Shown here piece by piece: positions 3,438 to 38,808 of a stretch of DNA of 64,000 bases. Numbering within the stretch: position 1 is the first letter of the stretch; each line of letters opens with the position of its first letter. This DNA is from a virus. Location: IMG/VR virus record IMGVR_UViG_3300050132_000038, positions 1 to 64,000 of that record; one strand, written 5' to 3'. The notes under the pieces were generated by a model, which saw nothing but the letters and a program-made list of their open reading frames with translations, was not told where the DNA came from and made no database searches. A program made the translations under genes and the position numbers.

Positions 3438-3788
3438 TTACAGTTTTGTGAGATCCTCTTTGTACTTGCGGAGATCCTGCTCAAGCTCAGAAACTTCTAC
3501 TTCATCCGCTTCTGGATCCCGTGTCAGCTGCTTGAGCCGTGTTTGAATCTTCTTGATACGTTGCTGCACTGTAGTCTTGCGATCAGCAGGGGCCTTAGAT
3601 ACCTTCGGCTTTGCTGGGTTTTTTGGTTTAGGTGCTGGTTTTCCGGCGTCCTTAGCAAGCTTCGAGTCGGGATGACGCTTAAGGTACTCTCTTTGCATCT
3701 CCGGATTGAGAGAAGTGAACCAGGATGGGGCTGCGACTACTTCCGTAGTTTCCATCAGCCGCGCTGCTGCGTTAAGTTGAATCTTCAT
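3438..3788 (-). CDS. Tagged small protein with N-terminal LNAAxRL peptide and HP-SK motif
   Basis: 116 residues. Starts KIQLNAAARLMETTEV, the shared tag. It is followed by a helical motif (W-F-x-S-L-x4-Q-R-E-Y-L, then HPDSKLA) that also occurs in the proteins at 4950, 36845 and 37777. Then come a Pro/Lys-rich linker (residues about 45-70) and a coiled-coil-like charged C-terminus. No enzymatic motif. The first 28 bases of its coding region are almost identical to those of the gene at 4649-4867, suggesting exchange of the 5' end. Probably a virion or head-packaged protein. Confidence 0.75.
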   Translation of the reverse strand: MKIQLNAAARLMETTEVVAAPSWFTSLNPEMQREYLKRHPDSKLAKDAGKPAPKPKNPAKPKVSKAPADRKTTVQQRIKKIQTRLKQLTRDPEADEVEVSELEQDLRKYKEDLTKL

Positions 3789-3806
3789 ATTAGTAGCCCT
3801 AGTTGA

Positions 3807-4565
3807 TTACGCAGTCGTGCCTTCTTCCACCTGGCGCCGAATTTCTTCTAAATAATCCGGAGCATAGCTGTACAACTTCGACCAGTACTCAATGGCCTGG
3901 GTCTGGTCCGCACGGCTAATGTTAGCCTTCACCATAGCACGACTAAACGATTTGGGGATTGGTACCTGCGAGATAACCGTCACCATATCATAATCAACAA
4001 CGGCAGCAGTTTGGGTAGTAGACGACACCACCTTAACTTGCTTATCGTTAGAAGCCACTACGAAACCGTGATCCATGTCACCCGACTTCGAGACAAACGA
4101 GACGAACTCACCTGAAGCAGCCTTAGCGATCTGAAGGCTACGCAATGCAGGAATGTCCGACCGGCGATGCACCGAAGCATTAACCAATTCCGACAGGTCC
4201 TCGTGACCATGACGTGCAAGGAACTTACCAGCCTTGCCCTCACGAATTTCCCACAGCGACTTGTCTGCATCATCCATCATAATGTTGGACGACATTACCT
4301 TATAGGATGCCCGCAACTCTTTATCAGAGACAACCCGCACTTCCTTGTTAGAACGAACGAACCCAACAGCTACACCAGCTTTGACGATACGGAAGCTATC
4401 TTCAACGGGAGCAGCCAGGTTGTTGAACTTATGTTGGAGAGCCGCACGAATGTCTTCCTTTGTCTGCTTACCAGTGAACGAGATCATCACCTTAGCCAGC
4501 GTCTCGCTCTTCATCCGGAAGTCGGTAATGCTTACAGTCTTTGCGTAGTCCATAATGCTGTTCAT
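3807..4565 (-). CDS. Hypothetical protein in virion gene cluster
   Basis: 252 residues, start supported by AAGGA before the ATG. No family recognised. It is mixed alpha/beta with no membrane segment or tag, and is acidic and helical at the C-terminus (YWSKLYSYAPDYLEEIRRQVEE). Its place among tail and tagged proteins suggests a structural or assembly role; that is inference from context only. Confidence 0.7.
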   Translation of the reverse strand: MNSIMDYAKTVSITDFRMKSETLAKVMISFTGKQTKEDIRAALQHKFNNLAAPVEDSFRIVKAGVAVGFVRSNKEVRVVSDKELRASYKVMSSNIMMDDADKSLWEIREGKAGKFLARHGHEDLSELVNASVHRRSDIPALRSLQIAKAASGEFVSFVSKSGDMDHGFVVASNDKQVKVVSSTTQTAAVVDYDMVTVISQVPIPKSFSRAMVKANISRADQTQAIEYWSKLYSYAPDYLEEIRRQVEEGTTA

Positions 4566-4648
4566 GATTTATATCCTTAGTTGTGCAGCAACTTTGTTGT
4601 GAAAGAAAGTGTGAAACAGTAGTGAACCTCTACGGGTCGGTACGGCGG

Positions 4649-4867
4649 TTACTTAGTCTTCTTGGCCTTACGATTGTCTTCTCGCATCTTTTTCATCTTT
4701 TCTTGTAGTTTCTGTAGTCCGTCTCTAGCTGCTACTCCACCTCTACCCATACTGATCAGTTGCTTAGTAGTGGCGATTTTGTTCTGAAGCTGCTTTATCT
4801 CAGTGTCAGAATGTTCCGCTGCAGTAACTTCTGTAAGTCGGGCTGCTGCGTTAAGTTGAATCTTCAT
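4649..4867 (-). CDS. Tagged small coiled-coil protein
   Basis: 72 residues. The tag KIQLNAAARLTEVTAA is followed by one charged helix-rich segment ending in a Lys-rich tail (RKAKKTK). Apart from the tag there is no recognisable domain. The small size and basic tail would suit a DNA-associated internal head protein, but this is inference. Confidence 0.7.
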   Translation of the reverse strand: MKIQLNAAARLTEVTAAEHSDTEIKQLQNKIATTKQLISMGRGGVAARDGLQKLQEKMKKMREDNRKAKKTK

Positions 4868-4949: not shown

Positions 4950-5558
4950 TTAGTCCTCCTGAAGCCCTTCTAGCTTATCGGACAATTCTTTCATCTGATC
5001 TTTGAGCTTCTGGGGTACATTCTTTCCGTACCCCTTCATCTCCTTCCGCAGCTTAGTACGCTTTCCTTGGAGATCCTTAATCTTACCTTCCTTAGACTTA
5101 AATTTGAAGGGTAGCTCTGGTAGCTCGCCCTTCTTGCCTATGTCAGTAAGCTCCAGGGGATCAAGTAGGCGACGAATAACTTCATGGCCTCCCTTCTTCA
5201 CCAGCTCCTTGGCCTTCTTCTTAGCTGCGTCCCCACCCTTATGAAGGAGATACTTAGTTAGACTCTTCTCCTCGTCTGGATTCTTCTTTGGTTTAGGCTT
5301 TGTTGTATCGTCTGAGTCCTCGTCTTCACCGCTCGGGCCTTCCAGAAGGGCCTTCGGAGTTTTCAGAGTCTTGGGCGGAGGTTTAAGGCCATCCTTTAGT
5401 TTCTTGGGCTTATGCTTGGATGTATCGTCATCCTCTCCGTCGTAGCCCATAGCGTATTTGCTATCGGGATGCTCCTCAATGTATTCTTCTTTCTGGTCCT
5501 CATCTAGGGCATCCCACCAGTTAGCCAATAACCTAGAGGCAGCTTGGAGCTTAATCAT
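4950..5558 (-). CDS. Tagged basic/acidic protein with HP-SKYA motif
   Basis: 202 residues. Starts MIKLQAASRLLAN, a variant of the shared tag, and runs straight into the WWDALDEDQKEEYIEEHPDSKYA motif also found in the tandem pair at 36845-38808. The rest is highly charged: an Asp/Glu- and Lys-rich linker (residues about 40-100), then a Lys-rich helical part with KLKDQMKELSDKLEGLQ near the end. No catalytic motif. Sits directly downstream of the tail tube gene. Confidence 0.75.
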   Translation of the reverse strand: MIKLQAASRLLANWWDALDEDQKEEYIEEHPDSKYAMGYDGEDDDTSKHKPKKLKDGLKPPPKTLKTPKALLEGPSGEDEDSDDTTKPKPKKNPDEEKSLTKYLLHKGGDAAKKKAKELVKKGGHEVIRRLLDPLELTDIGKKGELPELPFKFKSKEGKIKDLQGKRTKLRKEMKGYGKNVPQKLKDQMKELSDKLEGLQED

Positions 5559-6116: not shown

Positions 6117-6977
6117 TTAGCTAAGAGGCTGATTGGCTACGTTCCACAGATGTAAGGCGTCAGCATCACCCAGTACCTCCTCAGGTTCCTCGTCTGCATC
6201 ACTAAGGATTTGAACCTCGCCCTCTTCAGAAGGTTCACCTAGCATCTCATGACTTTCACAACCCGTATCGAACGTAGCCGCCAGGTAGTTCTCGTCCTCA
6301 TCACGCGAGACCGGGAACTTAACATAGGTCGACCCAGGAGGGGAGTCCACGTCCACAGTGGAGTCTGCTTCCACAACCGAAGCCTCATTCTGATACATGA
6401 TAGACTGCTCATCTAACAAGCGGTCTAGCATTGCTTTAGGCTTAGACTTACGTTTAGCTGCTGGCTTCTTTTTAGTAGCAGGCTTTCTCTTAGCACCTCT
6501 CACTACATCCGGCTGGTCCTCTAGGTTAATGTCAATAGAGGGTATGCTCGACTCAAACATATCGAACGGATTGTCCGTAGTGGAGTCCGCCTCTACTGCT
6601 CTGGGGTTAGAATCCTCGACACCCTGGAGTAGTGGATCCGTGGAAACCGAGTTATCACCCATAGCCCCGTGCTTCTCAATTGCCGCCCGAAGCCGGGAAG
6701 CCAACAGCTTAGCCATAGGGAACGCAGTACCTGATTCTCTAGTGCTTGTACGTGGAGGATTTGCATAGCCGTCACCTAACTCTTCGGCGGCAAACATACC
6801 ACTTGAGGTGTCTCGCTCGTCCCTAGAGCTTAGGGTATCTGCAGCAGTTACTGGATTGGTTTCAAGGAAGTCTTTAACTGCCACCTCATCTTCCTCTTGG
6901 TGCTCGTCTATGTCTGAGGCTTTAACTCTAGTCCCACTGGAGGCTAACAATCGTGATGCTGCGTTTAATTTGAACAT
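6117..6977 (-). CDS. Tagged acidic protein between sheath and tube genes
   Basis: 286 residues. Begins FKLNAASRLLASSG (shared tag), then low-complexity acidic sequence with a Lys-rich island around residues 165-185 (KRKPATKKKPAAKRKSKPK). A second tag-like stretch, AKLLASRLRAA, occurs near residue 90. Acidic repeats of the type ADST(V/T)D appear twice. No fold recognised. Its character resembles internal or scaffold head proteins rather than tail parts, although it sits between sheath and tube. Confidence 0.7.
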   Translation of the reverse strand: MFKLNAASRLLASSGTRVKASDIDEHQEEDEVAVKDFLETNPVTAADTLSSRDERDTSSGMFAAEELGDGYANPPRTSTRESGTAFPMAKLLASRLRAAIEKHGAMGDNSVSTDPLLQGVEDSNPRAVEADSTTDNPFDMFESSIPSIDINLEDQPDVVRGAKRKPATKKKPAAKRKSKPKAMLDRLLDEQSIMYQNEASVVEADSTVDVDSPPGSTYVKFPVSRDEDENYLAATFDTGCESHEMLGEPSEEGEVQILSDADEEPEEVLGDADALHLWNVANQPLS

Positions 6978-10681: not shown

Positions 10682-11770
10682 TCAGGCGATTCTGTAGCCC
10701 TTAGCAACCGAGCGACTGTTTGCAACTGCCACAGCGATCGACTCTTGGATGATCCAGCCACGACCGCTGACCTTCTCAACACCTGCGCTAATCGGCTCCG
10801 ACGAAATACCACCGCGATCCGAGTAAGCACCATGGTTCAGTGCATCCGAGATAACGAAGAATTCACCTTGGTTTAGCACCTTGTGTTCTGGGTGACGATA
10901 TGCGTCCGACGTAACGGTACACCCATAGATCACACCGAGTTCACCAGTCAACAGCAACTCGTGACGAGCAACCGGGTCGATTGCGTGGTAGAATTCCGAG
11001 TTACCGATAATGTCGATGTACAGATCGGTTGCCATCAACACGTGCGGCGTTTTCAGGCCCCACTGCGACACGTTCACCATAACTTGGGCAAACGTATACG
11101 GCGTCAGTTGACCCGAGATAATCGACAGCGGATTATCAATACCGACGATAGCATTAACTTGGTTGTACCACAGACGGTCTTCGCCGACCATGATAGCTTC
11201 CGTCGCTTCAACGTATTTCTCTTGAAGCACATCCCCGGCGGACTGGTTCAACTCGTTGGTCGGGATATACGGACGGGTAACGATCTGCAATTCCGGAGGA
11301 GTCAACCAACGGTCGCGCGTGATCTGCGAGTAAACCTTGGTCGGGCCAGTTGCATACGTAGCCGTAACGTTCTTGTTCCGCAACGGGAAACGAGGAATCG
11401 AGCCTTGTTCGACTGGAATCTTCGTCAAATACTTACGCATGAAACCTTGACGGTTTGCGGTAAGGTACAACGACTCAGCCATACGTTCGCCCAGAACGCG
11501 GTGTGCATCCGGATCATTGAAACTTGCTTGAATAAGCTCACGGCCAATCTTAGCGCCTTGTTCCGACGAGGCAAACACTGCATCGCTAACGATCTCGCCA
11601 CGCGAAGCAGCTTCGATAAACTGACGCTGCTTGTTCAACAGGTCTTGTTTAGACGAAGCATTGATTTCGCCACCAGCACCAACTGCGTAACCGTTTGAAC
11701 CCGGAAACTTATATTGGGAAGCTGCAACCATAGGCGTCTTGGCTGCTCGGACTTTGATTTTTTCACGCAT
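10682..11770 (-). CDS. Major capsid protein
   Basis: 362 residues, expected HK97 fold, building the icosahedral head. It has a helical N-arm (QDLLNKQRQFIEAASRGE), a middle region with the EKYVEATEAIMVGEDRLWYNQVNAI spine-helix pattern, and a C-terminal VSGRGWIIQESIAVAVANSRSVAKGYRI typical of large-myovirus capsid proteins. The N-terminus IKVRAAKTPMVAAS distantly resembles the shared tag and may be a processed delta segment. Position after protease and scaffold genes and before neck and tail genes is canonical. GGAG precedes the ATG. Confidence 0.85.
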   Translation of the reverse strand: MREKIKVRAAKTPMVAASQYKFPGSNGYAVGAGGEINASSKQDLLNKQRQFIEAASRGEIVSDAVFASSEQGAKIGRELIQASFNDPDAHRVLGERMAESLYLTANRQGFMRKYLTKIPVEQGSIPRFPLRNKNVTATYATGPTKVYSQITRDRWLTPPELQIVTRPYIPTNELNQSAGDVLQEKYVEATEAIMVGEDRLWYNQVNAIVGIDNPLSIISGQLTPYTFAQVMVNVSQWGLKTPHVLMATDLYIDIIGNSEFYHAIDPVARHELLLTGELGVIYGCTVTSDAYRHPEHKVLNQGEFFVISDALNHGAYSDRGGISSEPISAGVEKVSGRGWIIQESIAVAVANSRSVAKGYRIA

Positions 11771-12561: not shown

Positions 12562-14133
12562 TCACAGGTACGTGAAGAACGGTGCATCGCCATTCAGAAT
12601 AGCCTTAGCAGTCAACGAATGACTGGAAGCCTTAGCCTGAGTACGGGTCTTTTGCAGAGGGCGGCTCAGTGCTGCGTGAACAGTACTGGGGCTCTCGATC
12701 TCGTCTTCAAACTCGTCAGCGAACTCACCGTCGTCTTCTGCTTCAGCGGTGTACATGGCTTGGAAGTCAGGACTTGCCGAGTCACCATACAGGTTCTGGT
12801 CGTCGTCCATACCTTCGTCGCTAGTCATGTCCAGTGCTTCTGCAAACGTGTTACGTGTCGACTCAGGCATTGCTTGCAACTTGGTAGCCAGGGTAACGAT
12901 GGCCTTAGCATATGTAACACCGTGCGAGGCAAACACCGAACGTACCAGCTTCGAGGCACCGCGGACACCAGCTGCAGCCAATTCATCTTCGAGTGCTGCA
13001 CGCAACTCGTTCTTGGTGTCTTTGAAGTACTGACGATTGATACCAACAGCAGCGATAGCCAAGCATTGATCGAGAGCCGAGGTAGCAGCTTGAGAAGTCC
13101 GGCGAACTGCAGCAGTAACACTCTTCACCTTAGCTTCAACACGCTTGTTTAATACTTCGGTGCGACCCACGTTCACGGTAGCTAACGTAAATCCCATGCC
13201 CTTCAGACCAGCACGCAAACCATGTTTAGCCATTTCAACGCCAACTACATCTTGGAATTGATCCGACATATAGTGGTCACCATGACCGGCTTTGATAGCC
13301 TGCTTCTTACCCAGTGATGCGATGATACGGTTAGCCTTGATAGCGTGGACTCGCAGGCCAATCGAAGCAAACACAACATCTTCGCTATCCTTATCGTCCA
13401 TTGCATCAATGTCAACCACCGGCATGTCATCTTCGGTAGCGGCACTGTACTCCTTGCCGTCTTCCTCAGCACCCCAGTCGTCCATATCGCCCTCTTCTTC
13501 CTCGTCCACTGCAGCATTCATACGGCGCGATTCAGGGGTGTCTTCCTCCTCATTCTTGAAATGAGTCGAACCACCTTCGTCGTCATTGTCCGTATCGAGA
13601 AGCGATTGCGGAGTGAAGCCATGCTCAAGTTCATCAGCAGCGTTTACTTCTTCCATACCCTCTTCATCATCTTCCTCTTCTTCGTCGAACTCACCAACGG
13701 TCAGATAACCTTCGGCTGGGTCAACGTCGTTGTCGAGGAACTGCTCATCACCTTCTGCAGAGCCTGCCTTAACACCCGAGTCAGGATCAGCACCCGTGAA
13801 CAGGTCAGGATCAGCTTCAGAGCTCGACATATCCGGATCAGTACCCGAGAACGAATCGGTGTCCACATCAGCGTCGGCCTTGATACGCTTAGCTGCTTGC
13901 GTCTTAGCCACGGGTTTAGCTGAAGCATTCATCCGCCGCGTTTCTTTGGTGTCCTTTTCTTCATTCAAGAAATGGGTGGAGCCCCCTTCTGCTTCATCAG
14001 GGTCGATGAGCAGCATGGAGTCCTGATTGTTCTCAATTGAGAAGCCTGAGTATTCCGGAGCCTTCTTTTCCTCGTTAGGGAAATGCGTGGTCGGGAACTG
14101 GGCCGCCGTGATTTTCTTACGTACAATAGCCAT
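12562..14133 (-). CDS. Acidic scaffold-like / internal head protein with repeated THFxNEE modules
   Basis: 523 residues from ATG 14133 (MAIVRKKITAAQFP), chosen because AGAGAGG precedes it; a longer reading frame upstream lacks such a site. The N-terminal half is very acidic and holds three copies of THF-[PLK]-NEE. Copies two and three are longer: EGGSTHF, then NEE, then DT-x-E-[ST]-RRMNA. The C-terminal half (residues about 250-460) is helical and less acidic. Place between the protease-side genes and capsid, and composition, suggest the prohead core scaffold. The repeats may be protease sites or docking elements. Confidence 0.7.
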   Translation of the reverse strand: MAIVRKKITAAQFPTTHFPNEEKKAPEYSGFSIENNQDSMLLIDPDEAEGGSTHFLNEEKDTKETRRMNASAKPVAKTQAAKRIKADADVDTDSFSGTDPDMSSSEADPDLFTGADPDSGVKAGSAEGDEQFLDNDVDPAEGYLTVGEFDEEEEDDEEGMEEVNAADELEHGFTPQSLLDTDNDDEGGSTHFKNEEEDTPESRRMNAAVDEEEEGDMDDWGAEEDGKEYSAATEDDMPVVDIDAMDDKDSEDVVFASIGLRVHAIKANRIIASLGKKQAIKAGHGDHYMSDQFQDVVGVEMAKHGLRAGLKGMGFTLATVNVGRTEVLNKRVEAKVKSVTAAVRRTSQAATSALDQCLAIAAVGINRQYFKDTKNELRAALEDELAAAGVRGASKLVRSVFASHGVTYAKAIVTLATKLQAMPESTRNTFAEALDMTSDEGMDDDQNLYGDSASPDFQAMYTAEAEDDGEFADEFEDEIESPSTVHAALSRPLQKTRTQAKASSHSLTAKAILNGDAPFFTYL

Positions 14134-14235
14134 TGCATCCTCTCTAGAGATTAAAAAGTGTTTGAGATGGAATTCCTTAACACAGATTAAAATTGAGGAT
14201 AGCGTGAAACTACAAGAAGTCGTAGACAAGAAAAA

Positions 14236-16726: not shown

Positions 16727-17023
16727 TTAGCCTTCCCACAAAAATTCTAGCTTAGTAGCTGAAGCAGAGCTCTTCAGTGCCAGGCTCCACTCTCCCTCAT
16801 CCCGCGTTAGCTCTGCGTAGGCGTTATCGTACTCCCAACCAGCAGCCTCTAGAGTTTCAATAACCTTTTCTTTAGGTTCATGCACTATAAAAGCATCGTC
16901 CCCTTGGCGGTCTACGGTGAATCCCTTCGAGGTTAGCGTCCGCATAACTTCGTTCTTTATCTTGTTAGGAACTGCTGCACTAACTTCGACAAGACGGGCT
17001 GCAGCATTCAATTGGATTCTCAT
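16727..17023 (-). CDS. Tagged small protein next to prohead protease
   Basis: 98 residues. The tag RIQLNAAARLVEVSAAV is followed by a compact alpha/beta domain (KIKNEVMRTLTSKGFTVDRQGDDAFIVHEPKEKVIETLEAAGWEY) resembling a small ferredoxin-like fold. No catalytic residues recognised. Three bases separate it from the protease gene, so the two are probably co-translated. Confidence 0.7.
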   Translation of the reverse strand: MRIQLNAAARLVEVSAAVPNKIKNEVMRTLTSKGFTVDRQGDDAFIVHEPKEKVIETLEAAGWEYDNAYAELTRDEGEWSLALKSSASATKLEFLWEG

Positions 17024-24320: not shown

Positions 24321-24575
24321 TTACGTTAGGCCAGGGAACGTAATACCAGCAGGCCGTGTCTTCTTTCCCTTGTACTCTACAAGTTCTGGTAAGCGGTACA
24401 TAGATCGCACACCTCCGCCTACGTCTACCATAGCGACTTCTTCTTTACGCGCTACTTTAATATCGAGTACAGTTCCAATATACTCGTCGGGGTTTCGGGC
24501 TTCTGCTACTTTCATTCCAGGCTGTACCTTTGTAGCAGCTAGTAGTCGAGAGGCCGCATTAAGTTGTATCTGCAT
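24321..24575 (-). CDS. Tagged small beta-barrel-like protein
   Basis: 84 residues. The tag IQLNAASRLLAATKV is followed by a short beta-rich domain (GMKVAEARNPDEYIGTVLDIKVARKEEVAMVDVGGGVRSMYRLPEL) that looks like an SH3/KOW-type fold. Its ATG overlaps the TAA of the HNH gene by one base. Confidence 0.7.
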   Translation of the reverse strand: MQIQLNAASRLLAATKVQPGMKVAEARNPDEYIGTVLDIKVARKEEVAMVDVGGGVRSMYRLPELVEYKGKKTRPAGITFPGLT

Positions 24576-25445: not shown

Positions 25446-25826
25446 TTAAACTGAAAAGAAAATACGAAGATCGTTGTTGAGCTTCTGGAGGACCAAACCC
25501 TTCGTACCCTTGAGCGCAAAGCTTGAACGTTCAAAGATGCCGGGTTGAATGTGCAACTGATACCCAAGATCGTTAAGGATCTCTGAACAGAGCTCGGCCT
25601 CCTCAACCACGTCTCCTCGATTGCTCTTATGATACAAGTGGTTCTTGGACAGCGTGAAGAACACGTTTACCTTACGAAGTTGCTGCTCAATCTTCTGTAA
25701 ATCAGGGTCGCGTGTTTGGTCGAAGGCTGCCTCTAATGGTACATTGGCAACTGCCGGGGTTTGTACATTCGTGCTTGAACGAAGTTCTGAATCCCTAAGC
25801 CGGTATGCGGCGCGCAAATCAAACAT
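25446..25826 (-). CDS. Tagged protein, function unknown
   Basis: 126 residues if started at ATG 25826, giving FDLRAAYRLRDSEL, a divergent form of the shared tag; this is why I prefer that start over a GTG at 26021. Ribosome-binding site weak (GTGAGA). The body is mixed alpha/beta (KIEQQLRKVNVFFTLSKNHLYH; EILNDLGYQLHIQPG). Not recognised. Confidence 0.6.
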   Translation of the reverse strand: MFDLRAAYRLRDSELRSSTNVQTPAVANVPLEAAFDQTRDPDLQKIEQQLRKVNVFFTLSKNHLYHKSNRGDVVEEAELCSEILNDLGYQLHIQPGIFERSSFALKGTKGLVLQKLNNDLRIFFSV

Positions 25827-28037: not shown

Positions 28038-28567
28038 GCTTTCACCTTAAAGTAAAAATTCCCTCTAAGTTTATTTATAGGTTTACCTTTTACAATAGGT
28101 ATTGTATCGGTACCCCAAGAGAAATCCACAGGTACCTGAAGATGATCTAGTAGTTCCACTGAATAGTACTTAGATACGGATCTCCAGGTTCTAACTGCCA
28201 TTATACCTATAATGCTTGAACTTTGAAGTTCACCTAGAACATGAATAGCTGCTAGATATAGTACAAGACCTAAATGTCGTCCCCTGTATTCTTCTTCGAT
28301 AAAAACACTGATAACCATGTTGCCTTTGGCCGTCGTAGACAATATTCCAATTATTCTATCTCTATCTTTTAAGAAAAAGTCACGAGAATAAGTCAACTTC
28401 AGGTAGTATAAGGACAAACCTTCTTTTGTGCCAAGTGGTACAGCAGGCTTAGTTTTCAATCGTTTTTCAAGAAACTCTACGTCTCGATCAAATTCTAGTT
28501 GAGTGTAGTTCTCTCGCATCCTAATAGGCATAGACTCTACGAGCCTAGAGGCTGCATTTAATTGCAT
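28034..28567 (-). CDS. Tagged GNAT-like acetyltransferase
   Basis: 177 residues. Tag MQLNAASRLVES at the N-terminus. The C-terminal part has the GNAT pattern: strand MVISVFIEEEYRGRHLGLVLYLAAIHVL, where the EEYRGRHLG loop is the acetyl-CoA pyrophosphate-binding motif A. Substrate unknown. Its ATG lies inside the truncated duplicate of the neighbour gene, whose CCAGGTGAAACGAC supplies the ribosome-binding site. Its stop overlaps the ATG of the 26511 gene. The coding sequence looks more A/T-rich than its neighbours, in keeping with later acquisition. Confidence 0.7.
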   Translation of the reverse strand: MQLNAASRLVESMPIRMRENYTQLEFDRDVEFLEKRLKTKPAVPLGTKEGLSLYYLKLTYSRDFFLKDRDRIIGILSTTAKGNMVISVFIEEEYRGRHLGLVLYLAAIHVLGELQSSSIIGIMAVRTWRSVSKYYSVELLDHLQVPVDFSWGTDTIPIVKGKPINKLRGNFYFKVKA

Positions 28568-28659
28568 GTCGTTTCACCTGGAGCAAGCATAGGCGTTAGG
28601 TTCGGAGCTACTAATGTGTTTTCTGTTGGCTGTGCGAAGTAGACAAATGTGTTGTTCAT
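28558..28659 (-). pseudogene. Truncated duplicate of the 5' end of the 26511 structural gene
   Basis: Starts MNNTFVYFAQPTENTLVAPN like the 508-residue gene, diverges after GET, and stops at residue 33. It begins at an ATG overlapping the stop of the ADP-ribosyltransferase gene and contains the start of the GNAT-like gene. I read it as the scar of the duplication that accompanied insertion of that gene; the remnant now serves as leader. Confidence 0.85.
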
Positions 28660-29378
28660 TTTTCAATTCCCTTCAGGTACTCTGAAACCTTAAGAGGGGT
28701 ATTAGTCTCTGAGACTACGGCTAGTATGTTGTCTCTGCTAACGTGGGACACACCTGGCCCCTGAACCACTACCTCTTTCTGATCGTGGGAAAATGGATCA
28801 TCCAGGACAGTACGTATGAACTTTTTATCTATATAGAACAGAGCTGACGGTGGCGTATGAATAGCTAATATAATTCCGATCTGTTCTAAAGGTGTATCCC
28901 AGGTGACGTTGGCGTACTTCAATGCAACTTTAGGATCTGAGGTCCAGGATGAAAGAACAGCGGGCTCTACTTTCAACGGCTTGCCGTTTAGGATCTTTGT
29001 CAGCGCGGTCTCAGGGATAAGCAACCCTCGATACACTACCTTCGGTAGTGTACTACGGTAGCTTTCTCTAACGACGTGGAAAGCTTTTAGGGCATCCTGC
29101 ATTTGCGCGGAGGTGAATCTACCAGAACCGCCACTTATCCACTGCTGTATAGTATGTGAAACCCATTCAGGGAGGGGTTCAGCTGCAGCTAACAGCCTGT
29201 GTGCGGCGTTCAGCTTGACGCCTGATACTCCTATAGATGGCTGAACTAACGTGTTGTTAATGCCGTTACCCCAGATGTCAGGATCGCCAATTGATAGTTC
29301 CCCATCTGCTATTGGGGCAGTCTCACCTGTTCTGTGCCTAGGTGCGTGCATTGCTTTTGTCTCTTTCATATTAGCCAT
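28656..29378 (-). CDS. Tagged mono-ADP-ribosyltransferase
   Basis: 240 residues. C-terminal ART fold of the R-S-E class: KVVYRGL (Arg, about residue 113), LSSWTSDPKVALKYA (STS-type motif, about 144) and HDQKEVVV (about 199) as the catalytic QxE/ExE loop. A Gln two residues before the Glu would favour asparagine-type targets as in C3 toxins; tentative. The shared tag VKLNAAHRLLAAAE is at about residue 53 behind an unusual 50-residue leader, with no start codon available nearer. T4 Alt, a head-packaged ART injected with DNA, is the obvious functional parallel. Confidence 0.8.
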   Translation of the reverse strand: MANMKETKAMHAPRHRTGETAPIADGELSIGDPDIWGNGINNTLVQPSIGVSGVKLNAAHRLLAAAEPLPEWVSHTIQQWISGGSGRFTSAQMQDALKAFHVVRESYRSTLPKVVYRGLLIPETALTKILNGKPLKVEPAVLSSWTSDPKVALKYANVTWDTPLEQIGIILAIHTPPSALFYIDKKFIRTVLDDPFSHDQKEVVVQGPGVSHVSRDNILAVVSETNTPLKVSEYLKGIEK

Positions 29379-29704
29379 AGTACAGACCTTCCTGGCGCTG
29401 TCGTCAGTAGGCGGATAGTCTGTCCCTTCTGTTTCAATTGAACTGTAGTGCCCGCACAGTACATACCACCGTTGACCTGCCGAGGTTCATCTGAGATCCA
29501 TCGAGCTAACGCCAAGGCCATGACGATACGGGGGCTTTCCTCGTACACTAGCAGGGAATTATTTGCGTCATCTGGTGACTCCGCTTCGATACCATAGTTC
29601 GCTAGTAGTTCAATCAGGTGGGTACTCAACATGGCTTGCTCCTCTATAAGGGACGCTACTAGTCGGTGTGCAGCTTTCATATTAATCTCTCTAGTGTTAG
29701 CCAC
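29366..29704 (-). CDS. Tagged small protein, function unknown
   Basis: 112 residues. Tag variant INMKAAHRLVASLI begins at residue 7, then a helical segment and a small beta-rich domain (TTVQLKQKGQTIRLLTTAPGRSVLWLI). Overlaps the start of the ADP-ribosyltransferase gene by 13 bases, implying coupled translation. No family recognised. Confidence 0.65.
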   Translation of the reverse strand: MANTREINMKAAHRLVASLIEEQAMLSTHLIELLANYGIEAESPDDANNSLLVYEESPRIVMALALARWISDEPRQVNGGMYCAGTTVQLKQKGQTIRLLTTAPGRSVLWLI

Positions 29705-29710: not shown

Positions 29711-29980
29711 TTAGCCTCGGTCGGTTATGCGAGCCTTGTTACCCTCTTTGGCTACGTGGCACTTGTGCTCACCTTTACTAAACTCACCGGAGCCTGTTGA
29801 CGTCCACCCATCGCTTTTCAACTTGGAGACTACCTCAGAGAGTGTGGCGTCTACCGTGACATAGTTAGCACCCTCTGGGCGATCGTAGGTGAACTGGAGG
29901 CTGTTGATCCAGCCTTCAAAAGGGTCAGCGTGGACCTCGTACATAGAAAGTAATCGAGAAGCAGCATTGAGTTTAAACAT
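29711..29980 (-). CDS. Tagged small protein, function unknown
   Basis: 89 residues. FKLNAASRLLSMYE tag, then a small alpha/beta domain (YVTVDATLSEVVSKLKSDGWTSTGSGEFSKGEHKCHVAKEGNKARITDRG) similar in outline to the domain in the 16727 gene: two strands, a helix ending DGW/AGW, and a closing strand. Possibly paralogous; no function. Confidence 0.65.
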   Translation of the reverse strand: MFKLNAASRLLSMYEVHADPFEGWINSLQFTYDRPEGANYVTVDATLSEVVSKLKSDGWTSTGSGEFSKGEHKCHVAKEGNKARITDRG

Positions 29981-30021: not shown

Positions 30022-31419
30022 CTAGAGCCACAGCTTCTCTTTACCTGTCGGCTGCTCAGCTTTGGTTTCAGGAGCTTCGGAAGGCTTACTTTCTTCTCCG
30101 ATGCCACTGTTCAGAATCAAAAGAACTTTTCGGAGTTGGGCGTTATTTAATCCAAACTTCTGGCCTAGGAATTCAGCATCGTGCACTGAGACCTCTCTAC
30201 CCTTCGCTACGTTGGTCACTGTGAATTCAATTTGCGTGCTAGAGGGCTTCATTCGAATCTTAGCAGTGCGTGAGCTCTTAAACAACCCCTTTACTTCCTG
30301 GTACAGGGCATACGCAACTTCCTTGGCTTGCTCAGGCTCAACACCTTTACGCAGCTTGAACACTAGCTTATCTTCATCTACATCCAGCTTCTGAATGAAA
30401 TCCTTGTAGCTAAACATCTCTGGCTTCAACTCGTTCAGGGGTTTCCGCAGTTGCGTGGACAACGGCACAGTACCGAGCGAGGAGCTGAAGTCTTCTAGAG
30501 CTAAGAGATCAGAGATAGCTTTAACTGCCTCGCCTGCTGAGCCAACCGATTCACCTCCCTCTTTCAGCAGTTGACCCGGGAGTTCGTACTCTGGGTTAAT
30601 CTGAATCGTAGTAGACTCACCAACAACCCATTGCACTGAGATGTACAGGCTAGGCGTTACCTTACCTTCATCGTTAGTAGCGTTAATCAGCATCAGGTAG
30701 TAGGTGAAAACGATCTGGCCTTCAGCAGAAGTCGATACGTAGAGGAACAGATTGGAGTCCTCAAACATAACGTGCTCTTGCACTTCCTGACGAATAACGT
30801 CGATGTACTTCTCGAAGGTCTTCGGCACATGCTTGGCTGCCACTTCATTTAGGAAGCCTAAGACCGTTTTCAACTGCTTAGCAACCTTACCTTTCAACTC
30901 ATGGAGTGCAGCTATAGTAGCTGTATACGCTTCACCACGACGATCCGGGAACTGCATAGAGAGTTGAGCTTCCACTGCTTCTAGGGTACGATGTTTCTCG
31001 TATAGGTCCTCAGAGAGAGAGTACTGCTCTTCCAGCTTCTTAACGTTAGGGACCACCACCTTAGTAAGTTCTGGATCAATCTTACGCTTGAGTCGTGATT
31101 TATTTGACCCACCTTCACCTTCTTTGATGGTGAGTTCCATCTCAGCAGCCTTAACTAGAGTAGCACCAACCCACTCCTTTGGCTTCTTTAGGAAGGCCAA
31201 CTGAGTTTGGTGTACCTTAATAACCTTCTCGTTCTCGTCGATCTCTTCCTTCATAGTATCTAGGAAGCGAGTGACGTCATCGATGTAACGAAACTTCGGT
31301 AGTTCGATCGCGTGGACACGAGTTCGGGCTACTGTTTTGTTCTTAGCTGTTGCTGACTTCTTCGTGGCAGTAATACCCGAGGAAGCGCGGAGGCGAGCGG
31401 CTGCATTAGTCTTGACCAT
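30022..31419 (-). CDS. Tagged large protein with helical N-half
   Basis: 465 residues. Tag VKTNAAARLRASSG, then a basic Lys/Thr-rich linker, a long charged helical region (residues about 45-210; coiled coil likely), and a beta-containing C-terminal part with KTAKIRMKPSSTQIEFTVTNVAKGREVSVHD-like strands. Ends with an acidic/Pro tail. No enzymatic motif seen. AAGGA precedes the start. Confidence 0.7.
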   Translation of the reverse strand: MVKTNAAARLRASSGITATKKSATAKNKTVARTRVHAIELPKFRYIDDVTRFLDTMKEEIDENEKVIKVHQTQLAFLKKPKEWVGATLVKAAEMELTIKEGEGGSNKSRLKRKIDPELTKVVVPNVKKLEEQYSLSEDLYEKHRTLEAVEAQLSMQFPDRRGEAYTATIAALHELKGKVAKQLKTVLGFLNEVAAKHVPKTFEKYIDVIRQEVQEHVMFEDSNLFLYVSTSAEGQIVFTYYLMLINATNDEGKVTPSLYISVQWVVGESTTIQINPEYELPGQLLKEGGESVGSAGEAVKAISDLLALEDFSSSLGTVPLSTQLRKPLNELKPEMFSYKDFIQKLDVDEDKLVFKLRKGVEPEQAKEVAYALYQEVKGLFKSSRTAKIRMKPSSTQIEFTVTNVAKGREVSVHDAEFLGQKFGLNNAQLRKVLLILNSGIGEESKPSEAPETKAEQPTGKEKLWL

Positions 31420-33170: not shown

Positions 33171-33740
33171 CTAATCAAAGTGGGTAAGTCTGTACGCCGC
33201 GCTCATCTTCAGAGGGTCGACGCCATTCTTCTTCGCGTTTTCTATTCTGGAGATTTCCATCTCAACTGAGCGCATCGACTGTGGATCAGCTAGCAATGAT
33301 TCTAGCCCAGGGTGTAGGGGATCAGGCCACTCATTATACGGCACCCATACGTTACCTGCGGTTTCCTCAGCGAATTCAGGTGGAGAATTAATCTCGAATT
33401 GCTTAGGAATGACTACGAGATTGTTAGCGTACTGAAATCCGCGGTCTGCATCATAGTACGTCATGAGAGGGAATATCTTCATCTCACCTGTGTATCCTGT
33501 TTCCTCTCTAAGTTCCCGTTTGAGTGCGGTGAACGTTTCCTCGTTACCGTCGATAGAACCTCCCCAACAACCGTACGTGTTTGGCGTATCCGAAGTAGTG
33601 CTACGGAGTTGGAAACTGAAGTTCAGTGTGTCTGCAGCTAGGAGTAGGCAACCAACCGCGTAGTGGTACCCCCTCACCCCAGGGACCCATTCTTCACCAT
33701 CTTTGTGTGCTAGTAGTCGTGTAGCTGCATTTAGTTTCAT
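33171..33740 (-). CDS. Tagged Nudix hydrolase
   Basis: 189 residues. The N-terminal tag is KLNAATRLLAHKD. The Nudix box is GGSIDGNEETFTALKRELREETGY, with the catalytic REL-x-EE present, so hydrolysis of a nucleoside diphosphate derivative such as ADP-ribose or NADH is likely. A second tag-like peptide, LKMSAAYRLTHFD, forms the extreme C-terminus. Neighbouring genes encode a kinase-like protein and homospermidine synthase, all tagged. Confidence 0.85.
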   Translation of the reverse strand: MKLNAATRLLAHKDGEEWVPGVRGYHYAVGCLLLAADTLNFSFQLRSTTSDTPNTYGCWGGSIDGNEETFTALKRELREETGYTGEMKIFPLMTYYDADRGFQYANNLVVIPKQFEINSPPEFAEETAGNVWVPYNEWPDPLHPGLESLLADPQSMRSVEMEISRIENAKKNGVDPLKMSAAYRLTHFD

Positions 33741-33749: not shown

Positions 33750-34373
33750 CTAAGAAGTCGGGTCCACTATGACAACCTGCCTTCCGCGCATCATGAAGTT
33801 GTCCTTGTGGATGTCCGGGTAGCCATCACCAGTGTTGTACTCAGCTACAAGCCACTCGGCGAATTGTTTTAGATTCGGATCTAAGGGTGCGCCACGCGAA
33901 GTCTTTATCTCACATAGGCGGGTCCACAGCGGACTAACCTTAGACTGGTATACCGAGAGGTTTTTCTGGTGCGGTACAAAGCATATAGTCTCCAGTCCAT
34001 AGATGAACTTCTTGAACTGGGCTTCTGACATAGGAGTCAGTTTCTCCATGAAGACCACGTGAAGTCCTGTCTTATCTGAGTTCCAAATGTGGCCTTTGTA
34101 CTTCGGATCAGGATCCAGACCGTGTTCGTCGTGGTGCTCGCCCTTGATCTTCAATAGATACGGATTGTGGGGATTAGCCTGACAGAACTTCGTATACGAT
34201 TCGAACGCAGGGTCGTGAGTGAACACCTTCACCATCGTCGTCGGATCTGTTAGATGCTGAAAGACAAAGGCGTGAGAGCCCTTTGCTACAGGCTCTATAC
34301 CTTGTGACTTCAAGTCCTTCAGATACTCTGTCAAGGTGACTGCGATTAACCTAGTAGCTGCGTTTAACTTCAT
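33750..34373 (-). CDS. Tagged protein-kinase-like phosphotransferase
   Basis: 207 residues. Behind the tag KLNAATRLIAVTL is a reduced kinase fold: glycine-loop-like KGSHAFVFQH, a lysine in TMVKVFTHD, hinge-like VVFMEKL, catalytic loop DIHKDNFMM and metal-binding VIVDPTS at the C-terminus. All key residues appear in order, but the domain is short and ends right after the DFG-equivalent. It could phosphorylate a host protein or small molecule. Confidence 0.7.
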   Translation of the reverse strand: MKLNAATRLIAVTLTEYLKDLKSQGIEPVAKGSHAFVFQHLTDPTTMVKVFTHDPAFESYTKFCQANPHNPYLLKIKGEHHDEHGLDPDPKYKGHIWNSDKTGLHVVFMEKLTPMSEAQFKKFIYGLETICFVPHQKNLSVYQSKVSPLWTRLCEIKTSRGAPLDPNLKQFAEWLVAEYNTGDGYPDIHKDNFMMRGRQVVIVDPTS

Positions 34374-34376: not shown

Positions 34377-35792
34377 CTATTTCCCTACTAAAAAGTTTGT
34401 GAAAGCCCATTCGTTATCTTCATCGAAATCCTTCTTGTACAGGTGCCCTCTGTTATCCAAGGGACTCCAATCTGAATAGTAAGCCACCATAGGACCAAGG
34501 TAGGGTTTAGCTATTGACAGCACAAAGTCGAAGGGTAAGTCTTCTGGCTCACAATAACCCATTCTCGGATTCTCTAACGTCCATACTATAGCCCCTAGCA
34601 GTGAGGCACATACCTGCACAGTAGTTGCATTCTGACCAGGAACTAACGATCGAGCTTCCTCTATATCTAATTGAGAGCCATACCACAGCGCATTCTTACC
34701 ATGACCTAGGAGCAACACCCCTAGTTCATCGATACCACTTAGTATGGAGTTCTTAGCAATCCTAGTATTACGGTGCATCCACAATTCTTGTCCACGCATC
34801 TCATGGATTGAGGCCAATGCTGCATCTGTCGGCTGATACGCATAGTACACTGTAGGTCTATAGGAATCAGTGGATAGATACTCACTGATCGTTACTGCCT
34901 CTGAGTGCTGGATTAGGAATCCGTTATACGTACCACCAAGAGGCACCCAGGACTTCACGAGGGTGGCTACTCCGGGAGTGTCGAGATACGCTGAATTCCC
35001 CTGCACAGTTAAGCCACCAACCTCTTGCGGTTCGTGCGACCCCCAACCTAGTTCAGCAGGTGCTCTACCCTCAGCCCAGAAGCCTTCGCAGCTCCAGGTG
35101 TTAACGAATTCATGTACGCGCTTAGGAACCTTCAGTATCTGTGTATCGCGTTCTGCTATTTGAATCACCTTAGTATCAGTGGCCTCGGCTAGAGCTGCCC
35201 AACCCATTTGGTTCTGTGGAACCTCAGTAGATAATCCGGTATCCTTAGCAATCTTGAGTAATGCAGCTTTTGTGAAATGCGATACTAGCCCAGGGTTAGC
35301 CCCGTGCGTTACTACACAGGTAGCATGACCTGGGTACTTGGAAGCCATCTCCCTAATCTCTTGATGCTCTGTGTACAAAGTACGTTCTGCTAGATCGGGT
35401 ATTGTCTCGTCGGGTGAGGTAGCCCAACGCTCAATGGACGTGTCGATGTACATAACGTTATGGGATAGGCACCACTCTACAATAGCTATTCCATCGATGT
35501 TCAAGCTTAGGTTGACGAGGTAATCACCTTCAGCTAGTAAGGACTCAAGAGTAGAGCCCATGTTGTCTTCTACTATCTCACGCACTACGTAGTGAATGCC
35601 TGTGTAGGGAGCGAATTCAGGGCGCTCTACCTTATCCAAAACAGTTATCTTGGAGGGATTCAGATCTATGTGGCGGAGGAGCATTGGTAACATCGTCTGC
35701 CCTACAGCACCAAAGCCCAAGAGTAAGAGGCGACCATCGTGTGTTGCTAACTTTTGACTAGCTAGTAGTCTGGAGGCTGCGTTAATCTTCAT
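34377..35792 (-). CDS. Tagged homospermidine synthase
   Basis: 471 residues, close to the bacterial enzyme length. The N-terminal tag KINAASRLLASQK is followed by the NAD-binding Rossmann loop LLLLGFGAVGQTMLP, then family segments MYIDTSIERWA, VTHGANPGLVSHFTKAAL and GWGSHEPQEVGG, and the C-terminal GPMVAYYSDWSPLDNRGHLY. The family makes homospermidine from putrescine using NAD. In a virion, a polyamine enzyme could help neutralise packaged or newly injected DNA, or redirect host polyamines; inferred. Confidence 0.85.
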   Translation of the reverse strand: MKINAASRLLASQKLATHDGRLLLLGFGAVGQTMLPMLLRHIDLNPSKITVLDKVERPEFAPYTGIHYVVREIVEDNMGSTLESLLAEGDYLVNLSLNIDGIAIVEWCLSHNVMYIDTSIERWATSPDETIPDLAERTLYTEHQEIREMASKYPGHATCVVTHGANPGLVSHFTKAALLKIAKDTGLSTEVPQNQMGWAALAEATDTKVIQIAERDTQILKVPKRVHEFVNTWSCEGFWAEGRAPAELGWGSHEPQEVGGLTVQGNSAYLDTPGVATLVKSWVPLGGTYNGFLIQHSEAVTISEYLSTDSYRPTVYYAYQPTDAALASIHEMRGQELWMHRNTRIAKNSILSGIDELGVLLLGHGKNALWYGSQLDIEEARSLVPGQNATTVQVCASLLGAIVWTLENPRMGYCEPEDLPFDFVLSIAKPYLGPMVAYYSDWSPLDNRGHLYKKDFDEDNEWAFTNFLVGK

Positions 35793-36094: not shown

Positions 36095-36307
36095 CTACTT
36101 ACCCAGTAAGCGACGGGCCGCGCTAACCTCTACGTCATCCAAGACAGAGGCGTCCCTCCGGTTTTGGTAAATGTAGTTAGTCAAAGCCCACTTGTTATCA
36201 GGATGCGATTTCTCAGCGTCCTTCTTAGACTTCTCCCAGTCCTTCTCCAATTTCTTCTTAGTACCACGCCCTTCACGGACATCTTTATTGATTAATGCGT
36301 TAGGCAC
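36095..36307 (-). CDS. Small basic protein with C-terminal tag
   Basis: 70 residues starting at GTG (AGGAG upstream). Lys-rich helical N-terminal half, a KSHPDNKWALTNYIYQ segment resembling the HP-SK motif, and a C-terminal EVSAARRLLGK that matches the shared tag. It is the clearest case of the tag at a C-terminus. Confidence 0.65.
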   Translation of the reverse strand: MPNALINKDVREGRGTKKKLEKDWEKSKKDAEKSHPDNKWALTNYIYQNRRDASVLDDVEVSAARRLLGK

Positions 36308-36344
36308 TTTGATTCTCCTAGTAGCTGAAAATCAATACTGCTAG

Positions 36345-36848
36345 TTATACACGTTTAAGTTGGTGAACACTGAATACTCCGTAGGTAGGAATATCGTCGT
36401 TCACTCCTTCCTTGCCTTCTACAGAGTTAAACCCAGCAGCCTTGAGGATCCTAACTAGCTCAGGTAGTTGCATGTACCACTCCCACACATGCTTATAACC
36501 GGAACCCTTTACCTCTGCTAGTTCGTCCATGAGCTCCATACCCTTTTCTCTAGTGATGTGACCCTCCTGGAATTGCGAGAGTATGCCACGCTTCACCCGA
36601 TCGGTTACATCCTTCAGCTGAACTTCCGTTTGTAGCGTTCGGAAACCAAAGTCGAAGCTATGCCCTATGTCAGCATGAAATTCTAGTACGTGCTGTTCAT
36701 CCTTTGCATACTCTAAGGCGTAGTCTCGATCAGGAGTAATGAAGATGATGTGCTGGTTCTTTGCGTGTTCATCCGACCAGGTTTGAGTTAGGCCTCGGTA
36801 GAAGATTTGACTAGCTAGTAGCCTGTGTGCTGCGTTTAGTTTCATCAT
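36345..36848 (-). CDS. Tagged ADP-ribosyltransferase-like protein
   Basis: 167 residues. Tag MKLNAAHRLLASQ. The following IFYRGLTQTW, HIIFITPDRDYALEYAKD and the closing YGVFSVHQLKRV match the outline of compact ART-fold proteins found in phage polyvalent proteins: an Arg strand, a TPDxxYAxxYA helix, and a final VF-[DS]-x2-Q-[IL]-K strand. The third catalytic residue cannot be fixed by eye. If real, the window encodes two tagged ADP-ribosyltransferases. Confidence 0.55.
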   Translation of the reverse strand: MMKLNAAHRLLASQIFYRGLTQTWSDEHAKNQHIIFITPDRDYALEYAKDEQHVLEFHADIGHSFDFGFRTLQTEVQLKDVTDRVKRGILSQFQEGHITREKGMELMDELAEVKGSGYKHVWEWYMQLPELVRILKAAGFNSVEGKEGVNDDIPTYGVFSVHQLKRV

Positions 36849-37780
36849 ACTTCTTCCTTTAGAGCTTTGCTCACTACAGCATCCTCTAATCCTTGCCCTA
36901 TGGATTCTACAAAGTGGCGGAGAACGCTGCCCTCCGGAACTTTCCTTTTACGAATGGCGTTGAGCGCGCTAGTTAAAGCTAGGCTGCCAGCACCAGCAAC
37001 AAGGTGTGCGGCAAACCCACCAGGTAGTGCCGCTATACTCATGCCTAATGCCATCTTCCCTAGGCCCTTGATTGCTTTCTTCTGCTCAGCACTCAACTCT
37101 GTACCCTCACTCAGTGCTACAAGTCCTGTGGTGGCCTGCTTTACCCTAGGGAAGGACCGGTCTAGTACCTTAGCTATGTGTGAGGCCTTAGACTTAATGT
37201 GCTGAGCAATGGCACCCTTCTTAGGTGGTGTCGATACCTCTTCATCAGGTACATCGGCTTTCTCTATACCCTCGGCCACGGAGTCCACGAACACTTCGAG
37301 GTCGTCCTTACCATTGGAATTCTCTTTGTTCTTTTTGAAGTGTTCCGTAGCGTATTTCACTGCGTGAACACCTACGTGACCAGCAGTATGAATAAGGTGT
37401 GCCTGTTCCTTACCTACTGCGAACTTCAATGCTGATTTCAGGACTGTATCCCCGAGCTCCATGAGAACATCCCGATGGTCCTCAGTTAGCTTCTTCCCTG
37501 TGGCAAGATGCTTTAGGGCTGCGGTAGCTCCGGATAACAGTGGGAATGAATCTCGGAGTAGCCTCGCTATCTTAGGGCCGTGGGTTCTTAGGACACCTGC
37601 AGACGCCTTACGGGGCTCAGGTGTATCCTTAGCCTCGGGTTCTTTCGAGTCTTCCTTTATGGAATCCTTAGCATACTTGGAGCCTGGATGATCCTTGATG
37701 TATTGCTTCTTCTGGTCGGCATCAAGAGCTTCCCACCAATCCTCCGAAGCTAACAGTCGATGCGCCGCGTTTAGTTTCAT
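36845..37780 (-). CDS. Tagged internally duplicated helical protein (paralogue of the next gene)
   Basis: 311 residues. Tag KLNAAHRLLASED, WWEALDADQKKQYIKDHPGSKYA motif, then two related helical repeats. The first starts APKIARLLRDSFPLL and contains ALKHLATGKKLTEDHRDVL; the second starts ASHIAKVLDRSFPRV and contains VALSEGTELSAEQKKAI, followed by a Gly/Ala-rich hydrophobic stretch (SIAALPGGFAAHLVAGAGSLALTSAL) that could insert in or pore a membrane. Overlaps the start of the 36345 gene and ends within the paralogue's frame by 4 bases. Confidence 0.75.
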   Translation of the reverse strand: MKLNAAHRLLASEDWWEALDADQKKQYIKDHPGSKYAKDSIKEDSKEPEAKDTPEPRKASAGVLRTHGPKIARLLRDSFPLLSGATAALKHLATGKKLTEDHRDVLMELGDTVLKSALKFAVGKEQAHLIHTAGHVGVHAVKYATEHFKKNKENSNGKDDLEVFVDSVAEGIEKADVPDEEVSTPPKKGAIAQHIKSKASHIAKVLDRSFPRVKQATTGLVALSEGTELSAEQKKAIKGLGKMALGMSIAALPGGFAAHLVAGAGSLALTSALNAIRKRKVPEGSVLRHFVESIGQGLEDAVVSKALKEEV

Positions 37781-38808
37781 CCTTCCCCCTCACCACCAGC
37801 AGTGTGCTCAAGCAAGGCATCTTCCAAGCCTTCGCCAATCGACTCTACGAAGTGGTGGATGATGTGTCCATCTTTGAACTTACCACTCTGTATTAGTTTG
37901 AATGCGTGGGTGATTGCTACTGAGCCAACCCCTGCTGCTAAGTGGGCAGCCAGTCCACCAGGTAGTGCGGCGATACTTAAGCCCAAAGTAATCTTACCCA
38001 GGCTCTTCATTGCGGTTTTCTGTTCATCCGAAAGCTTCTGTCCTTCGCTTAGGGCAACCAAACCTTGGGTAGCAGGCTTGATATGCTGGAAGGACTTATC
38101 CAGCACCTGTGTAATGTGGTGTGCTTTACTCCTGATGTGCCGACCGATAGCAGAACGGTAGCTACTCTTAGGTGCAGCATGCTCTTTAGGAACCGGGGCT
38201 TCCTTAGCTTGCTCTACACCATCGGCTAAAGCCTCGACGAAGACCTCAACGTCATCCTTACCCTCGGACTGTTCCTTCTTCTCTTTGAAGTGTTCCACTG
38301 CGTGGTTAACTGCGGTAATACCAATACGGCCGAGTACCTGAGCACCATGAACACCAACAACAGAGCTAAGAGTAGCTTTGAGGGCTACACCACCGAGGTC
38401 GTATAGTGCTTCCTTGTGGTTTTCCTCTAGGGCCTTACCGGTGGCTAAATGCTTTAGGGCTGAGGTAGCTTCATGGATTAGCGGAAATGTCTTCTTAAGG
38501 AAGCTGGCAATCTTAGGGGCATGTTTACGAATGCCACCTGCAATCTTCTTACGGTGCTCTGGATTAATCTGCGACTTAGCCGCAGGCTCTGTACCCAACT
38601 CCTCTTCATCCTTCTTGGATTTCGATTCCTCGTTAGAGCCCTCTCGAATAGCGTCCTCTGCGTACTTCGAGTGGGGGTGTTCCTCTATGTACTCCTTCTT
38701 CTGGTCGGGCTCTAGATGTTGCCACCACTCACTGGCTGCTGGAGCCTTTGCCTGAGTAATAGTGGATGCTACCAATCGTGCTGCTGCGTTTAGTTTGAAT
38801 TGTTTCAT
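37777..38808 (-). CDS. Tagged internally duplicated helical protein (paralogue)
   Basis: 343 residues, same architecture as the 36845 gene: tag KLNAAARLVAST, EWWQHLEPDQKKEYIEEHPHSKYA motif, an acidic/Lys linker, repeat 1 (APKIASFLKKTFPLI...ALKHLATGKALEENHKEAL), and repeat 2 (AHHITQVLDKSFQHI...VALSEGQKLSDEQKTAM) with hydrophobic SIAALPGGLAAHLAAGVGS. The two genes arose by tandem duplication. Possible membrane-active ejection proteins; this is inference. Confidence 0.75.
   Translation of the reverse strand: MKQFKLNAAARLVASTITQAKAPAASEWWQHLEPDQKKEYIEEHPHSKYAEDAIREGSNEESKSKKDEEELGTEPAAKSQINPEHRKKIAGGIRKHAPKIASFLKKTFPLIHEATSALKHLATGKALEENHKEALYDLGGVALKATLSSVVGVHGAQVLGRIGITAVNHAVEHFKEKKEQSEGKDDVEVFVEALADGVEQAKEAPVPKEHAAPKSSYRSAIGRHIRSKAHHITQVLDKSFQHIKPATQGLVALSEGQKLSDEQKTAMKSLGKITLGLSIAALPGGLAAHLAAGVGSVAITHAFKLIQSGKFKDGHIIHHFVESIGEGLEDALLEHTAGGEGEG

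Follow-up and report, generated by a model that had tools for sequence, protein, structure and literature searches.

A short peptide tag on unrelated proteins of a jumbo phage clade, a probable capsid-targeting signal

A recurrent peptide in the head-gene block

Why do some twenty proteins of one phage, most of them otherwise unalike, carry the same short peptide? The question arises in the first 64 kb (positions 1 to 64,000, here called the window) of the 218.9-kb virus record IMGVR_UViG_3300050132_000038, where the original prediction had placed such a peptide in 18 proteins and proposed that it directs them into the virion; the remainder of the record was covered by a pattern search and by short stretches. 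The peptide, [KQ]-L-N-A-A-x-R-L-x-[A/E]-[A/S/T], forms the N-terminus of 17 proteins and lies between the domains of an eighteenth (28656; open reading frames (ORFs) are named here by their left-hand coordinate), and we confirmed it at all 18 named places. The N-terminal and internal positions were thereby upheld, but the prediction had overlooked phage-specific dialects and C-terminal copies, which are present on three proteins, namely 23834 (23843-23875), 33171 (33177-33209, a protein tagged at both ends) and 36095 (36098-36130), as well as a weak copy near the start of an SprT protein (15828-15860). Additional copies were detected elsewhere in the record, near 88.0, 164.9, 184.0, 216.7, 217.1 and 218.4 kb. 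The peptide, referred to below as the tag, is thus real and more extensive than was first stated, and we propose that it is probably a portable signal by which internal (ejection) proteins are targeted to the capsid.

The pattern [LIMVF]xA[AS]xR[LMI] matched 20 times in the ORFs of the window, with 18 matches near a protein end. In 100 residue shuffles it averaged 0.56 matches, 0.21 of them near an end, and never exceeded 3, and the reversed window proteins had a single match. At the DNA level, the whole record gave 24 minus-strand and 6 plus-strand matches; when the pattern was reversed, the counts fell to 1 and 2. Within the head-gene block (3.4-38.9 kb), tags were present in 20 of the 38 ORFs on the minus strand, and in none of the 43 ORFs to the right of this block.

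Clade-wide occurrence and dialects

The major capsid protein of the window is 75% identical to that of the Burkholderia phages BcepSauron and BcepSaruman, and 60% identical to that of the Achromobacter phage Motura. Relatives were gathered by scanning viral contigs for one spelling of the tag, which gave 11 stretches, several of them tag-dense, and by a head-protein search, which gave 59 loci (individual relatives are cited by G or L numbers). The tag is present in BcepSauron, in Motura and in dozens of metagenomic contigs whose major capsid protein is homologous, and the expectation that a motif search across the record and related phages would return the same peptide on varying proteins, enzyme-like ones included, was borne out. 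The clade statistics are based on 955 ORFs from the window, its relatives and the gathered loci; these ORFs were called mechanically, with some real genes in GC-rich contigs being displaced by shadow frames, and the contigs are possibly fragments, some being near-duplicates of one another. Within this set, the motif h-x-A-x-x-R-h (h, hydrophobic) started within residues 1-13 in 109 cases, where its frequency inside proteins would predict 7.6, and approximately one ORF in nine has an N-terminal tag. The logo of 107 N-terminal copies is [KQRE]-[LI]-[NQE]-A-A-x-R-L-x-[A/E]-[A/S/T], most commonly starting at residue 3. While A+2 and R+5 are imposed by the search motif, K/Q-1, A+3, L+6, A+8 and A/S/T+9 are free of it, and all five were above the level of interior matches. 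Support for the C-terminal copies comes from their conservation in orthologues.

The spelling of the tag differs between phages, with LNAAxRL in the window phage, EIQAxxRLxA in Motura, KLQAATRLQ in G013 (L130) and KLxAKxRLLAA (the AK dialect) in G018 (L122) and its relatives; the dialect of L134 may be NFA[ST]RLLAS. Similarity at the variable positions was 0.51 within a genome and 0.36 between genomes (permutation p <= 2e-4), as would be expected from co-evolution with a shared receptor. A DNA pattern requiring Leu and Ala-Ala had suggested that Motura lacks tags, which was ruled out by reading its N-termini. The proteins gp161, gp162, gp174-gp177 and gp197 of Motura bear EIQAxxRLxA or variants of it. 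The AK-dialect pattern matched six stretches in the whole viral collection, four of them on known clade contigs; the other two are L154, where window protein 3807 has a homologue, and L158, for which clade membership was not established. In the protease and head region of phage NCTB (L147), several N-termini read MK[IV]x[IL]S..A (MKIISISARSKAP, MKIVSISAQKPAL, MLISLSAAIN), and by their spelling these may represent a remoter dialect of the same system.

A detachable module selected as a peptide

The peptide had been described as a detachable module on unrelated proteins, and this description held: once the tags had been cut off, an all-against-all comparison found likeness only among 3438, 4950, 36845 and 37777, which include the paralogues 36845 and 37777, which are alike along their length. 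This comparison also ruled out that the tag is part of one continuous homologous domain. The core DNA of 17 tags (16 N-terminal and the internal one) differed in all 17, and third bases at the shared Ala, Arg and Leu codons agreed at 0.34, versus 0.26-0.30 by chance from codon usage. Since all of these DNA copies differ and their synonymous codons are near-random, selection acts on the peptide.

Comparison of split and fused orthologues gave a consistent picture of one tag per polypeptide in the cases examined. G030 encodes a 449-residue protein that opens with a tag and has DarA_C as its C-terminal domain; in G027 this protein is split into two genes, and each half opens with its own tag (MKLEAHTRLRQAE, MRIEAKQRLLASHQFKYAM). 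Similarly, homologues of 36095 and 29711 form one protein in G001 with a single tag between the domains, whereas they are two proteins in the window, 36095 being tagged at its end and 29711 at its start. A segment of the first part of 28656 recurs in G002, in a protein with the tag at its C-terminus, and in orthologues of 23834 the tag is terminal in the window, G001 and BcepSauron, and followed by an additional domain in G002 and G003. This pattern resembles that of a portable signal, and is unlike that of a fragment of a domain.

The tagged proteins of the window tend to be short and to have no more than one known catalytic domain each, and most are without a known domain. The recognisable cargo includes a NUDIX protein, a saccharopine-dehydrogenase-like protein and a match to the T7 gp0.7 kinase family, with SprT-like proteins being clearly tagged in G003; kinase-like, NUDIX and SprT cargo would suit host take-over. 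As modelled by AlphaFold, the NUDIX protein has a fold that matches solved NUDIX structures, and both tags lie outside this fold, the first modelled at very low confidence. An assignment of 36345 and 28656 as ADP-ribosyltransferases, based on YRG motifs seen by eye, found no support in Pfam, PHROGs or PDB, and a search for relatives of 36345 for modelling found none.

A second module, W[WF]xxLxxxxxxxYxxxHPxSKYA, was observed in 3438-3788, 4950-5558, 36845-37780 and 37777-38808, usually directly after the tag. It is repeated in a BcepSauron protein, and a variant precedes DarA_C in L151:553-1902.

Links to the phage head

The strongest functional evidence for a link to the head comes from the carriers of the DarA_C family domain. 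The DarA protein of phage P1 resides on the inner capsid surface and exits with the DNA, and the head protease probably processes it (PMC12810830, PMC5512222). A search for DarA_C in 33 clade records gave three matches, none of them in the record of the window, and all three polypeptides are tagged. One of the three was first met in the scan of tagged proteins, leaving two as independent; as approximately one in nine ORFs is tagged, finding both tagged by chance has a probability of ~0.01, with the caveat that homologous genes are not strictly independent.

The block that holds the tags also contains head genes. A protease had been placed at 15905, and the minus-strand ORF 15905..16723 matches a head maturation protease (PHROG 18299, 5.9e-90), with His132 and Ser190 conserved in alignments. 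The major capsid protein is encoded at 10682..11770 (minus strand) and has a weakly tag-like N-terminus (KIKVRAAKTPMVAAS). An acidic protein encoded at 12562..14229 as listed (minus strand), likely with an internal ATG start (MAIVRKKITAAQF), has a best PHROG match named ATPase; it is a candidate scaffold or core protein, and it might be the tag receptor. The block further encodes a head-tail connector and a helicase. The PaBG homologue of this helicase matches the PaBG virion helicase in size (PMC7412058). Two similar stretches, STHFLNEEKDTKETRRMNAS and STHFKNEEEDTPESRRMNAA, were seen in the scaffold candidate (12562-14127, minus strand), and the head proteins of the clade strictly keep GE[ILV]NA near residue 36; these are possible sites of the head protease.

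Proposed function and alternative explanations

We propose that the tag probably acts late in infection by binding a shared prohead component, which may be the acidic scaffold or core protein, the head protein or the protease. By analogy with the capsid-targeting sequence (CTS) of phage T4, the h-x-A-x-x-R-L core would be the part that binds this component, and the tagged proteins would be built into the prohead core, later to be delivered into the host along with the DNA. Packaging into virions, the receptor and cleavage are all inferred. It is quite possible, if short of probable, that the head maturation protease cuts N-terminal tags off at their end, at the L-x-[A/E]↓[A/S/T] boundary. Position +8 of N-terminal tags is Ala in 71% and Glu in 7%, followed by A/S/T at +9, both above interior matches, and the L-x-[A/E] end would fit the rule for T4 gp21, L/I-x-E. 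Four of the 11 C-terminal tags have Ala at +8, a small count that includes orthologues; the residue being common in N-terminal and less so in C-terminal tags is expected if cutting serves N-terminal tags only.

The N-terminus of the head protein is K-[VI]-x-[VIL]-x-A-[AST]-[KR]-x-P in most loci read, that of the scaffold candidate is K-x-V-x-A-A, and some proteases contain a K-[IL]-x-A stretch; going by this apparent and weak similarity to the tag, the cargo may imitate head-core proteins. A speculative extension, on the unlikely side in our view, is that the tag mimics an N-terminal arm of the head-core proteins, with one code for the assembly of cargo, shell and scaffold and one protease of herpesvirus-assemblin-like preference ([LIV]-x-A↓[A/S/T]) for their release. 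Were this mimicry true, the code would have a lineage-specific spelling and the head an open cargo bay, in which any gene could be turned into a virion effector by a nine-residue label at either end or between domains.

Several observations weigh against packaging and cleavage as proposed here. The cut site is proposed from conservation, and L-x-A↓A inside the tag may serve instead. The fold of the protease lacks structural confirmation, as the AlphaFold model was too poor, with a predicted template-modelling score (pTM) of 0.58, and neither Foldseek nor a profile search against PDB sequences gave a match. With the loose motif, C-terminal copies are not enriched clade-wide (12 versus 7.0). Some orthologues are untagged, including those of 30022 in BcepSauron and G018, the kinase-like and SprT proteins of G018 and the 23834 orthologue of Motura. 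The literature holds, as far as we found, no virion proteome of a tagged phage, and the N-termini of 37 genes read in PaBG, a relative with a published virion proteome (PMC7412058), showed no clear tag.

The same observations can be read in other ways. The tag might be a docking peptide for a partner outside the capsid, such as the host RNA polymerase, a chaperone, a late complex or the tail, acting in the infected cell without packaging into heads. Dialects and a position at either end or between domains are compatible with any shared partner, but the confinement of the tag to the head-gene block and its presence on all DarA_C proteins point to the head, making such docking unlikely. A role as degradation or silencing signal, holding proteins low or inactive until needed, would suit those cargos that resemble enzymes able to act on host components; such a signal would need to function at either end and between domains, and it leaves both the restriction to the head block and the DarA_C carriers unexplained, hence we consider it highly improbable.

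Alternatively, the tag may be no more than the recognition and cut site of the head maturation protease, with packaging relying on regions elsewhere in the proteins. Both L-x-A-A and L-x-[A/E]-[A/S/T] do look like protease sites, and similar stretches occur in the head protein and the scaffold candidate. Against this, the R-L core is conserved beyond the needs of a short cut site, there is little to remove behind the C-terminal copies, and small proteins that otherwise share nothing would need further signals, so this is very unlikely. Scarcely credible is an element at the nucleotide level (a translation-start enhancer, a regulatory RNA element or a recently spread DNA repeat) that is incidentally translated: most copies do directly follow the start codon, but others lie inside genes and at gene ends, and the differences between the 17 DNA copies, with their randomised synonymous codons, rule out a nucleotide repeat or translation signal.

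Comparison with known targeting signals

The closest parallel to the proposed packaging signal is the T4 CTS, which is present on IPI, IPII, IPIII and Alt and is cut by gp21 according to the rule L/I-x-E; of its 10 residues, 4 and 7 matter for targeting, whereas gp21 processing depends on 8 and 10 (PMC9026906). Like the tag, it is about 10 residues long, N-terminal and carried by unrelated proteins, which in T4 are head-internal, with the head protease encoded alongside, and processing of T4 Alt at both ends (PMC9026906) is paralleled by the tags at both ends of the NUDIX protein. It differs in having a handful of carriers rather than the approximately 20 of the window phage, and in its cut rule, since the proposed cut of the window tag mostly has Ala and not Glu. 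The tag is also found at C-termini and between domains, and comes in dialects. To our knowledge, the T4 CTS has no match to the logo K-L-N-A-A-x-R-L-x-A. The predicted analogy, that of a different signal recognised by the scaffold and perhaps cut by the protease at 15905, is supported in part.

The signal of P1 DarB-type proteins is similarly N-terminal and on a head-internal, injected protein, and DarA_C domains are found on tagged proteins of the clade, but the N-termini of Dar proteins have no consensus as published, while all carriers described here have one motif in common. Polyvalent proteins (PMC5512222) have comparable injected activities (GNAT, metallopeptidase, DarA) encoded beside late genes; these combine many domains in one giant polypeptide, whereas in this clade most activities are spread over individually labelled small proteins. 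Outside the phages, the tag recalls a different kind of shell. Encapsulin cargo-loading peptides and the encapsulation peptides of bacterial microcompartments are short, located at either end of unrelated enzymes, and direct these into a protein shell; such shells differ from a phage head, and we claim no sequence relation.

Literature searches by six spellings of the peptide, which gave a single unrelated paper, and by topic found no earlier description of the tag, with subscription papers and bioRxiv being outside their coverage. The tag system is clade-wide and, within reach of these searches, undescribed, and by analogy it most likely works like the T4 CTS, although we do not assign it to that sequence family. 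If the tag is a packaging label, then sequence alone would list the proteins injected by a family of largely uncultured jumbo phages, providing a ready catalogue of candidate effectors and anti-defence proteins, most of them without a known domain. It would also offer a short and portable label with which proteins could be loaded into large phage heads, and would clearly exemplify a targeting code that drifts in dialect. As Motura, BcepSauron and BcepSaruman are cultured, this is directly testable.

Tagged genes and other features of the window

All tags of the window are on the minus strand. The ORFs at the left of the block open with QLNAAARLMET (3747..3779, ORF 3438-3788), QLNAAARLTEV (4826..4858, ORF 4649-4867), KLQAASRLLAN (5520..5552, ORF 4950-5558) and KLNAASRLLAS (6939..6971, ORF 6117-6977, with a tagged L020 orthologue), the tags of 3438 and 4950 being followed by the second module. 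The weak SLGASKRLQEA (15828..15860) lies near the start of the SprT-like protein 14268-15896. It is followed by QLNAAARLVEV (16982..17014) at the start of ORF 16727-17023, KLGASARLLAT (23843..23875) at the end of ORF 23834-24304, and QLNAASRLLAA (24534..24566) at the start of ORF 24321-24575. The ORF listed at 25446 does carry the predicted tag (DLRAAYRLRDS, 25788..25820), but its start needed correction: the gene starts at the internal ATG at 25826 (MFDLRAAYRL) and not at the upstream GTG, as shown by its orthologues in BcepSauron (MFAVEAAKRLLATA) and G003 (MKLYAANRLLATEA).

Further along, QLNAASRLVES (28532..28564) opens ORF 28034-28567, which has a weak GNAT match below the Pfam cut-off, and the internal KLNAAHRLLAA (29184..29216) separates the two parts of ORF 28656-29378. 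ORF 29366-29704 starts with NMKAAHRLVAS (29651..29683), ORF 29711-29980 with KLNAASRLLSM (29942..29974; in G001 fused behind the 36095-like domain), and ORF 30022-31419, which has both tagged and untagged orthologues, with KTNAAARLRAS (31381..31413). The NUDIX protein 33171-33740 has KLNAATRLLAH (33705..33737) at its N-terminus and KMSAAYRLTHF (33177..33209) at its C-terminus, while KLNAATRLIAV (34338..34370) and KINAASRLLAS (35757..35789) open the protein-kinase-like ORF 33750-34373 and the saccharopine-dehydrogenase-like ORF 34377-35792, respectively. EVSAARRLLGK (36098..36130) ends ORF 36095-36307, and is at the same place in the BcepSauron and G003 orthologues. The last three tags are KLNAAHRLLAS in ORF 36345-36848 (36810..36842) and in ORF 36845-37780 (37745..37777), and KLNAAARLVAS in ORF 37777-38808 (38764..38796), all at the ORF start and, in the latter two ORFs, followed by the second module.

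Beyond the tagged genes, the minus strand encodes a topoisomerase IB (38811-40535), an SPFH/Band 7 protein (42700-43545) and a nicotinamide phosphoribosyltransferase (47480-48880). A three-gene molybdenum hydroxylase operon (2-3375, minus strand) directly adjoins a tagged gene, and consists of a [2Fe-2S] subunit (2893-3375), a flavin adenine dinucleotide (FAD) subunit (1918-2892) and a molybdopterin-binding subunit (2-1921) that runs off the end of the contig; such an operon is uncommon in phages, or else the end of the contig is chimeric.

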